From Anaerolineae bacterium (GTDB taxonomy: Bacteria > Chloroflexota > Anaerolineae > Aggregatilineales > Ch27), in NCBI GenBank assembly GCA_013178165.1, contig JABLXG010000034.1:1-34787 (forward strand): 34,787 bases of DNA. Reading direction: 5' to 3'. The notes under the pieces are model-generated. The model was not told where the DNA came from. It worked only from the letters and a program-made list of their open reading frames with translations, and made no database searches. Shown in pieces: positions 5,750 to 10,053 of this stretch (the first letter of the stretch is position 1; every line of letters starts with the position of its first letter). The position numbers and the translations under genes were made by a program.

Positions 5750-5756
5750 GTTCAGG

Positions 5757-6144
5757 TGGAGATGCCGGGAATCGAACCCGGGTCCGAAGAGGACGAAACC
5801 GCACGTCTACAAGCTTAGTTGGCCTTTTGGTTCTCGCCGTCGGTAGCCCCGGCCAACAGGGTACACCTCAGGCCCAGCCGATAACTCTTAGCGCCCACGT
5901 ATCGGCGTCACAGGCGAGCACTCCGGCTTTGGTGACGCCCGCCAGTCTCCCCGACCGGAGACGGGAAGGGCGGACGGATTACCGTATCAGGTAATCAGCT
6001 ATGCTAGGGACCGCTTAAGCGGCCATAGCCATAGCGGGTGCGTAAGTGCGGTTGGCACTTAATGGGTTGCGCCAGATTTACGAGTTAGCGCCGCTCGGCT
6101 TGCAGTACGGCCACTATCGCTCCCCGTCGAAACCTGTCATCCCC
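5757..6144 (-). ncRNA. ssrA: Transfer-messenger RNA (tmRNA)
   Basis: The 388-nt gene has the tRNA-like ends of tmRNA. The 5' end GGGGATG pairs with CATCTCC near the 3' end, the 5' part continues with GGTTTCGACGGGGA, and the 3' part has the T-arm GGTTCGATTCCC. CCA is not fully encoded (CCT follows the discriminator). The internal resume frame at 6056-6015 encodes a 13-residue tag. tmRNA with SmpB frees stalled ribosomes and tags the nascent chain for proteolysis. It is transcribed divergently from proB and ends at the 5717 hairpin. The ends are set by acceptor pairing and should be right within a base or two. Confidence 0.97.
6015..6056 (-). other. tmRNA proteolysis-tag reading frame (ANRTYAPAMAMAA)
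   Basis: Within ssrA, the resume codon GCC (6056-6054) follows TTAAGT. The frame reads A-N-R-T-Y-A-P-A-M-A-M-A-A and stops at TAA (6017-6015). The Ala-Asn start and the small hydrophobic end with AA fit bacterial tmRNA tags. The Met-Ala-Met-Ala-Ala end differs from the common LAA ending. Confidence 0.85.
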
Positions 6145-7424: not shown

Positions 7425-8681
7425 ATGACCATCGACATGCAGGCGCTCGGACAACAGGCCAGAGCCGCGGCGCGCATCCTGCGCAGCCAGCCCACCACCG
7501 CCAAAAATGCCGCCCTGCTGGCCATCGCTGACGCTATTGACAGCCATCAGGCGGCCATCCTGGCAGCCAACGCCGCCGATGTCACTGCCGGCCAGCTAGC
7601 CGGTCTCAGCCCGGCCATGATCGACCGGCTGAATCTGGCGGGACGGCTGGCCGGAATCACCGCCGATGTCCGCCGTGTGGCTGAATTACCTGATCCGGTC
7701 GGCGTAGAGTTCGACGCGCACACCCTGCCCAATGGCCTGCAGGTCAGGAAGCGCCGGGTGCCCATTGGCGTGCTGGGCGTAATTTACGAATCGCGCCCTA
7801 ATGTGACGGTGGACGTCGCTGCTCTGGCGCTTAAGACCGGCAACGCGGTCATTCTGCGCGGCGGCTCGGAGACGCTGCGTAGCAATACCGCGCTGGTCGA
7901 TGTGATCCAGGACGCTGTAGCGGGGGCTGGTTTACCAGCTGATGCCGTCCAGCTGATTCGCGATCCCGACCGGCGCTATGTCACCGAACTCCTTCGCCTG
8001 AGCGACTATGTCGACATGATCATCCCGCGCGGCGGCAACCATTTGCATCAGCTTTGCCGCGAGCAGAGCACCATCCCGGTGATCACCGGCGGGATTGGCA
8101 TCTGCCATCTGTATGTGGACGAGACAGCCGATCTGGCCGCCGCGATAAACGTCATTCACAATGCCAAAGTGCAGCGTCCCACCGTCTGCAACGCCCTGGA
8201 TACCCTGCTCGTTCAGCGCAATATCGCCGACCAGTTCATCCCTGCGGTTGTGGATCGGCTGACCAGAGATGGCGTGACGTTCCGGGTAGACGCGGAGGCT
8301 GCTGCGCTACTGGCTGGACGGGAACAGGTAACCCTGGCCGGGCCGGACGACTGGGATACCGAATGGCTGGCCCTGATCCTGGGCATCCGTATTGTTCCCG
8401 ATCTGGAGGCGGCTATTGCCCACATCCAGGCCCACAGCACCGGTCATTCTGACGGCATCCTGACCACCGACCCGGCAGCGATGGCGCGTTTCCTCAATGA
8501 GGTCGACTCAGCGGCTGTGTATGTTAATGCGTCAACCCGCTTCACTGATGGTGGACAGTTAGGGCTTGGCGCGGAGATCGCTATCAGTACACAGAAGCTG
8601 CATGCGCGCGGGCCAATGGGGCTGGAGGAATTGACCACCTACAAGTGGATCATCGTTGGGGAAAATCACATCCGGCCGTAG
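7425..8681 (+). CDS. proA: Glutamate-5-semialdehyde dehydrogenase (gamma-glutamyl phosphate reductase)
   Basis: Reduces gamma-glutamyl phosphate with NADPH to glutamate semialdehyde, which cyclises on the way to proline. The 418-aa protein has the ALDH-like fold with [17 protein letters not shown], the nucleotide-binding region [15 protein letters not shown] and the catalytic Cys255 in [13 protein letters not shown]. The C-terminal block [29 protein letters not shown] is typical and complete. The ATG is preceded by GGGAGGA at good spacing. It lies directly after proB and forms a two-gene operon. The hairpin at 8701-8725 just after the stop is oriented for the opposite strand but could also weakly stop this transcript. 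Confidence 0.96.
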
Positions 8682-8689
8682 GCGCAGGT

Positions 8690-8910
8690 GGAAGCAAAAA
8701 CCCCTTCAGGTCACCCCTGAAGAGGCTTCGCCAGCAAAGGATACCCGCCATGCCGTGTGCTGCCCGTTTTGAACCTGCTTTCGCAGGTGGGTGCCTACCA
8801 GAAGCCTCAGCCTTGGCCGTAGCCTAACGCTTCAGTCTCTGGAAAATGAACACCCTTCTTTAAGAGTGTTGGCTCAAAACCTGGGTGCGGCATCACGCGC
8901 ACGGCAGGCG
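8690..8910 (-). ncRNA. Structured small RNA of unassigned family
   Basis: A free-standing transcription unit of about 215 nt on the minus strand. A TTTACA/TATAAA promoter lies just upstream and a hairpin plus five Ts closes it. A long-range closing stem pairs 8897-8906 with 8751-8760 (10 positions, one mismatch). A second stem pairs GTTTTGAGCC (8880-8871) with GGTTCAAAAC (8775-8766). Inside are a 9-bp hairpin (8849-8870), a GAAA-tetraloop hairpin (8773-8788, sharing three bases with the second stem) and a less certain arm (8790-8845). No coding frame fits it and no gene lies downstream on the strand, so a riboswitch is unlikely. A closing stem, internal bubble and 3'-side hairpin are loosely like 6S RNA, but I cannot confirm that. 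Confidence 0.6.
8696..8725 (-). terminator. Intrinsic terminator of the 8.7-8.9 kb RNA
   Basis: On the minus strand CCTCTTCAGG and CCTGAAGGGG form a 10-bp stem with one G-T pair and a 5-base loop, followed by TTTTT. The T-run lies only on the minus-strand side, which fixes the direction. Confidence 0.8.
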
Positions 8911-8916
8911 AGTTCT

Positions 8917-8945
8917 TTTATACCACGTCTGGCCTGCTCTGTAAA
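8917..8945 (-). promoter_or_regulatory. Promoter of the 8.7-8.9 kb RNA
   Basis: On the minus strand TTTACA (8945-8940), a 17-base spacer and TATAAA (8922-8917), the latter preceded by TGG. Predicted start is near 8910, a few bases before the closing stem of the RNA. Confidence 0.7.
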
Positions 8946-8975: not shown

Positions 8976-9977
8976 TCAGTCAAATAGCCGGGCGATCTCA
9001 TCCCGCGCCGGGCGCGGCAGAGCCACCCCCCGGTGGAGCACAGCCGCTGGTCCCGCCGCCACCTGCCCTAGCCGGAAAACTGGAATTCCCGCCTTTTGCA
9101 GCGCCGCCCGTACCCCGGCTTCCGCCTCCGGGCGGACCGTCAGCAGCAATGCCCCGGAAGCAATCGCCCCCAGCGGATCAAGACCGTAAAGCGCGCACAG
9201 CCGCGCCCCTTCTTGACACAGCGGCCACGTCTCAACATCCAGGTGGAGTGCCCTGCCGCTGGCCTCGGCCACTTCCCACAGCGCGGTGGCCAGCCCGCCT
9301 TCGGTGGGATCGTGCATACTGGTGACCCCCCCTGCGGTGCAGGCGGCCTGCGCGTCCGGCACCACGCTGATGCCCGGCCTGGTCAGGTACTCTGCAGCCC
9401 GATCCACCAGAGCCGGATCGAGCCGCTGGAGTAGTTCGGCGCGTTTCTCGCGGGCAATGATCGCCGTCGCCTCGATCGGGATGCCTTTCGTCAACAGGAT
9501 CACATCGCCGATCTGTGCGCCGCCGGTCGTGACCAGCCGATCCTTCTCCACCTCGCCGAGCATGAACCCGGCCACAATAGGACGCTCCAGACCATAGGTG
9601 ATTTCGGTATGGCCACCAATCAGGGTGATACCCAGCGCAGCGCAGGCCGAGGTGATCTGCGTGAAGATACGCTCTGCCAGCGCCCGGTCGGCTTGCCCAC
9701 CCGGTAGCAGCACGGTAGCCATAAACCAGCGGGGTATTGCGCCGGTTGTTGCCAGATCGTTGGCGTTCACCTGCACGGCATACCAGCCGATCGCGTCGGT
9801 CGCAAACGTGATCGGATCGGTCTTGGCCACCAGGTATCGCTCGCCCATATCGATGACGGCGGCATCCTCGCCAATCCGTGGGCCTACCACCACCCGCGGG
9901 TCGGTGGGTAGTCGGCTCAGCAAATCGGCCAGGAGGTCAGCAGGCAGTTTCCCCAGTGGCAGCATGTGATCGCTCAT
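8976..9977 (-). CDS. AIR-synthase-related protein (HypE/ThiL/SelD superfamily)
   Basis: A 333-aa ATP-binding protein of the PurM/HypE/ThiL fold. It shows VVGPRIGEDAAVIDMGERYLV and TDPITFATDAIGWYAVQVNANDLA near the N-terminus, IGGHTEITYG in the middle and the second-domain signature MHDPTEGGLATALWEVAEAS with a late ASGALLLTV. HypE proteins end in a PRIC-type Cys used for cyanide-ligand synthesis; this one ends DEIARLFD with no Cys, and no hyp genes are nearby. Hydrogenase maturation is therefore unlikely, and the substrate is unknown. ATG 9977 is where homology starts, but a TTG at 10028 has a better AGGAG site 6 bases away, so the start is uncertain. An extended -10 lies at 10054-10059. Confidence 0.8.
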   Translation of the reverse strand: MSDHMLPLGKLPADLLADLLSRLPTDPRVVVGPRIGEDAAVIDMGERYLVAKTDPITFATDAIGWYAVQVNANDLATTGAIPRWFMATVLLPGGQADRALAERIFTQITSACAALGITLIGGHTEITYGLERPIVAGFMLGEVEKDRLVTTGGAQIGDVILLTKGIPIEATAIIAREKRAELLQRLDPALVDRAAEYLTRPGISVVPDAQAACTAGGVTSMHDPTEGGLATALWEVAEASGRALHLDVETWPLCQEGARLCALYGLDPLGAIASGALLLTVRPEAEAGVRAALQKAGIPVFRLGQVAAGPAAVLHRGVALPRPARDEIARLFD

Positions 9978-10053
9978 CTCTGTCAGCTTCCATTTGCCAG
10001 CAGTCGCAGGTCCCGCCAGTAAGCGCAATTTGCACTCCTGGCCGGCAGGCGCT

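Follow-up and report, generated by a model that had tools for sequence, protein, structure and literature searches.

The RNA adjoining proA on the minus strand of the window (the whole stretch of DNA analysed, 34,787 nt from an Anaerolineae bacterium) was identified as the single 6S RNA gene of this Aggregatilineales bacterium of the phylum Chloroflexota, a reading to which we assign a probability of about 0.96. 6S RNA is a widespread regulator that mimics an open promoter and holds RNA polymerase in check, and it has reportedly been surveyed across bacteria by Wehner et al. in 2014. We regard the gene as genuine and well formed, and its product as an ordinary 6S RNA of this well-known family. 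The family, the fold and the promoter were established by computation, and the binding of RNA polymerase, the synthesis of pRNA and the release of the RNA would be shared with the 6S family by homology. The coordinates of the features are given in Table 1.

Table 1. Features of the 6S RNA locus, in positions of the window
Feature	Position	Strand	Basis or detail
6S RNA (ssrS) body	8738..8913	-	RF00013 match, model positions 1-187 of 187; 71.3 bits
-35 box TTTACA	8940..8945	-	Sequence; relatives carry the same element in the same place
-10 box TATAAA, in GTGGTATAAA	8917..8922	-	Spacer of 17 bases after the -35 box
Closing stem P1, 5' strand	8894..8909	-	One bulged base at 8898; pairs with 8743-8757
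Closing stem P1, 3' strand	8743..8757	-	RF00013 alignment, RNAalifold, covariation test
Helix P2, 5' strand GUUUUGAGCC (downstream duplex)	8871..8880	-	Pairs with 8766-8775
Helix P2, 3' strand GGUUCAAAAC	8766..8775	-	Covariation test
Central bubble, 5' strand	8856..8870	-	Position in RF00013 alignment
3' central-bubble hairpin ACCUGC-GAAA-GCAGGU	8773..8788	-	GGU in common with P2
Apical arm	8789..8855	-	Conserved tip motif GCGUUAGGC-UACG-GCCAAGGC at 8810-8830
Putative pRNA template	8868..8881	-	Start expected opposite C at 8868; pRNA 5'-GUUGGCUCAAAACC
Intrinsic terminator	8696..8725	-	Stem 8701-8725, then five T at 8700-8696; sequence and fold

The family was assigned with cmscan and Rfam 15. 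The match to RF00013 (6S RNA) exceeded the gathering threshold of 46.4 bits by 25 bits along the full model, with an E-value of 2.4e-12 for the whole window, and a genome-wide search found one 6S RNA copy in the source genome. A preliminary description of this DNA had placed the RNA in an unknown family, which is no longer tenable; its tentative comparison with 6S RNA was right, and the covariance-model check against Rfam that it had proposed settled the family as RF00013. The gene agrees with 6S/SsrS RNA in the whole-model match, the closing stem, P2, the central bubble and the apical arm, as well as in its own promoter and terminator and its single copy; it differs in sequence-level details only, and a 6S gene between proBA and an AIR-synthase-like gene was found only in the bacterial family of the host. 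Such species-specific details, for example a strong hairpin in the 5' central-bubble strand, might be taken to indicate a new RNA family, structured and free-standing, whose resemblance to 6S RNA is limited to layout. We regard this as exceedingly unlikely, and as to family it is already refuted by the score along the full model, by homologues over the same cut-off across Anaerolineae and in other families of Chloroflexota, and by a low-threshold search of the region in which no Rfam family other than RF00013 was matched.

The 6S RNA was widely distributed among relatives. When the genome itself was searched together with relatives from its genus, family and order, matches to RF00013 above the cut-off were obtained in 33 of 41 genomes. 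The RF00013 model alone, used with strict filters, matched 77 of 300 genomes spread over Chloroflexota, and a group model (R1), built from 53 sequences of the host's group, matched 178 of 200 Anaerolineae genomes and yielded copies in several genomes missed by the Rfam model. In addition, the pattern of the 3'-end of the RNA matched 72 DNA stretches titled as Chloroflexota or its subgroups, mostly Anaerolineae. The cultured relative Anaerolinea thermolimosa (L063) also has a match. In one Anaerolineae family (f10), nearly all sampled genomes were without a 6S RNA by R1 (G071, G182, G272, G287, G302, G316, G331, G448, G455, G464, G478 and G484, seven of them also without a match to the Rfam model), and one member (G472) has one; in this family the 6S RNA may have been lost or may have diverged strongly. 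Two 6S matches each were found in a few Anaerolineae genomes (G119, G383, G416, G369 and G485, of families f11, f93 and f117), and these could represent a 6S-1/6S-2 pair as in Bacillus, or contamination.

The gene appears to be free-standing, with a promoter and a terminator of its own, on the basis of its sequence and of conservation in relatives. Both elements were present as the preliminary description had given them, a TTTACA-17-TATAAA promoter and an intrinsic terminator on the minus strand, and the transcript predicted from them is ∼218 nt long. TTTACA-17-TATAAA, or the same element with TATAAC, was present in close relatives. Promoters with at least 9 of 12 matches and a -10 box ending 0–8 nt before the RNA were found in 62 of 94 relatives (a set that includes some near-identical sequences, so that the count is not one of independent events); random positions in these loci gave 0.8%. 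With a simple scan, a terminator-like stem followed by a T-run was found in 57 of 100 relatives. Neither element was reported by a generic consensus scan of promoters and terminators; the promoter was missed because the pattern requires T at the last -10 position, and the terminator probably because A bases prolonging its stem can pair with the T-run.

The proB and proA genes lie on the plus strand, tail to tail with the RNA as already described, and proA ends at 8681. No gene follows directly downstream of the RNA on its own strand, and an AIR-synthase-like gene (8976–10028, minus strand) precedes it. The earlier view of a free-standing and probably trans-acting RNA with its own promoter and terminator was supported. 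The position directly downstream of the AIR-synthase-like gene on the same strand, together with the ProB-ProA/6S/AIR synthase arrangement kept in family members, could also suggest a cis element, either a terminator structure or long 3'-untranslated region belonging to that upstream gene or an antisense regulator of proA. This has next to no probability in our judgement, given that a conserved promoter stands between the AIR-synthase-like gene and the RNA, that the RNA does not overlap proA, and that the RNA is far more widespread than its ProA and AIR-synthase neighbours, which were found only in family-level relatives. The order was kept in same-family relatives whose contigs reach far enough, and among the relatives examined it was not seen outside the host's family. 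On the far side of proBA there is a tmRNA gene (5754–6144, minus strand; tag ANRTYAPAMAMAA; 177.8 bits), and the pair is therefore flanked by two housekeeping RNA genes, tmRNA and 6S, on the same strand.

The strand from 8913 to 8690 (224 nt) folded at -109.2 kcal/mol, vs. a mean of -80.9 kcal/mol for dinucleotide shuffles (z = -5.8), and none of 200 shuffles was as stable. For the covariation test, 53 distinct sequences were aligned with MAFFT from sequence alone (A1); in this alignment, 89.7% of cells were paired over the 39 pairs of the canonical 6S fold. Changes on both sides were observed at 18 of the 39 pairs, vs. 10.9 (SD 1.2) in shuffles, with none of 500 as high, and the covariation score of the fold was 0.187 vs. 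0.114 in shuffles. When the partners were slid by 1 to 3 columns, pairing fell to 34–50%. The closing stem, P2 and the apical tip were also predicted, identically, by RNAalifold from the alignment alone. The 6S architecture, namely a terminal closing stem, a central bubble bounded by P2 and an apical arm, is present. Most of the well-placed compensatory change sits in P2 (97.4% paired, with both-side changes at 5 of 10 pairs) and in the two apical tip helices, where every one of the 6 pairs shows a both-side change. Beyond its first two pairs the base of the apical arm was weak, and helix 3 as drawn was 58.9% paired.

The closing stem P1 is nearly invariant, and both-side changes are confined to two of its pairs; what supports it is therefore the conservation of pairing (96.9% of cells). 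Its register was given alike by the Rfam model, by minimum-energy folding and by RNAalifold. The long-range closing stem that had been described was found, and so was covariation in homologues, for the canonical 6S fold, but the register first drawn, 8897–8906 with 8751–8760, was rejected: in the 53 relatives it had no both-side changes and scored like its own shuffles, and its two innermost pairs failed in nearly half of them. The 3' central-bubble hairpin, the GAAA-tetraloop hairpin recognized earlier, was paired in 95.0% of cells in the 53 sequences with little covariation, and it was a stable local fold in all 94 relatives. In one relative (L019:1501-1632), a 6S RNA of 132 nt in all has a much shortened apical arm; the closing stem and P2 are retained, as is the beginning of the pRNA template.

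The predicted pRNA template lies at the junction of the 5' central bubble and P2, and the CCAA just before the pRNA start was invariant in 53 relatives. The pRNA of B. subtilis 6S-1 RNA is 5'-GUUCGGUCAAAACUA (PMC12005410), and over the first 14 positions the start expected here from the sequence was identical to it at 11 (5'-GUUGGCUCAAAACC vs. 5'-GUUCGGUCAAAACU). Synthesis of pRNA unwinds P2, after which release is helped by either a hairpin in the 3' central bubble or a central-bubble collapse helix (PMC8876501). When the template was blocked in silico, P2 dissolved and the 3' hairpin was completed to six pairs, which in these model folds is the behaviour expected of a 6S RNA. As in B. subtilis 6S-1 RNA, a 3' central-bubble hairpin is predicted in the free RNA (PMC8876501); unlike it, the hairpin here has six pairs, with three 3' bases common to P2, and in this it comes nearer to the extended release hairpin of E. 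coli 6S RNA (PMC8876501). Ms1 RNA of actinobacteria is a structural relative of 6S RNA (PMC9130861). It binds RNA polymerase as the core enzyme that lacks sigma, and an Ms1-like RNA would share polymerase binding with 6S RNA; the RNA here matched no family except 6S, and its conserved template at P2 and the central bubble and its pRNA start, similar to that of B. subtilis, are 6S hallmarks, which leaves an Ms1-like function barely conceivable.

By homology with other 6S RNAs, the sigma-70-type promoter (8917–8945) would drive transcription of the 6S RNA to an end at the terminator (∼8696). The RNA would fold into a rod in which the central bubble imitates an open promoter, and the rod would bind RNA polymerase carrying the housekeeping sigma factor, lowering transcription when the RNA is abundant. 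On the return of nucleotides, the polymerase would copy a short pRNA from the template; this would open P2 and free the GGU required for the complete 3' central-bubble hairpin, which would help to eject the RNA.

The 5' central-bubble strand can also form a local hairpin, AACACUCUU-AAAG-AAGGGUGUU (8849–8870, minus strand; about -9 kcal/mol). The unconstrained fold adopted it, with a gain of 2 kcal/mol over a fold in which GGG/CCC closes the apical arm, a point that counts against the 6S reading. The strong hairpin was found in the host species and a few close relatives. As a conserved switch it was rejected (45.5% of cells paired, covariation not above shuffles), and only its central two pairs were common among relatives; because of these results, it is probably a peculiarity of the host species and its nearest kin. 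It is very unlikely, in our estimate, that in the host species this hairpin holds the free 6S RNA in competition with the apical-arm base and that the RNA must therefore refold before polymerase can bind; if true, the refolding step would add a further switch to those known from E. coli and B. subtilis.

No experimental 6S work on Chloroflexota was found in the literature searched. 6S RNA is near-universal across the sampled Anaerolineae and is now annotated in an uncultured Aggregatilineales genome, and the expected pRNA provides a testable start for Chloroflexota.
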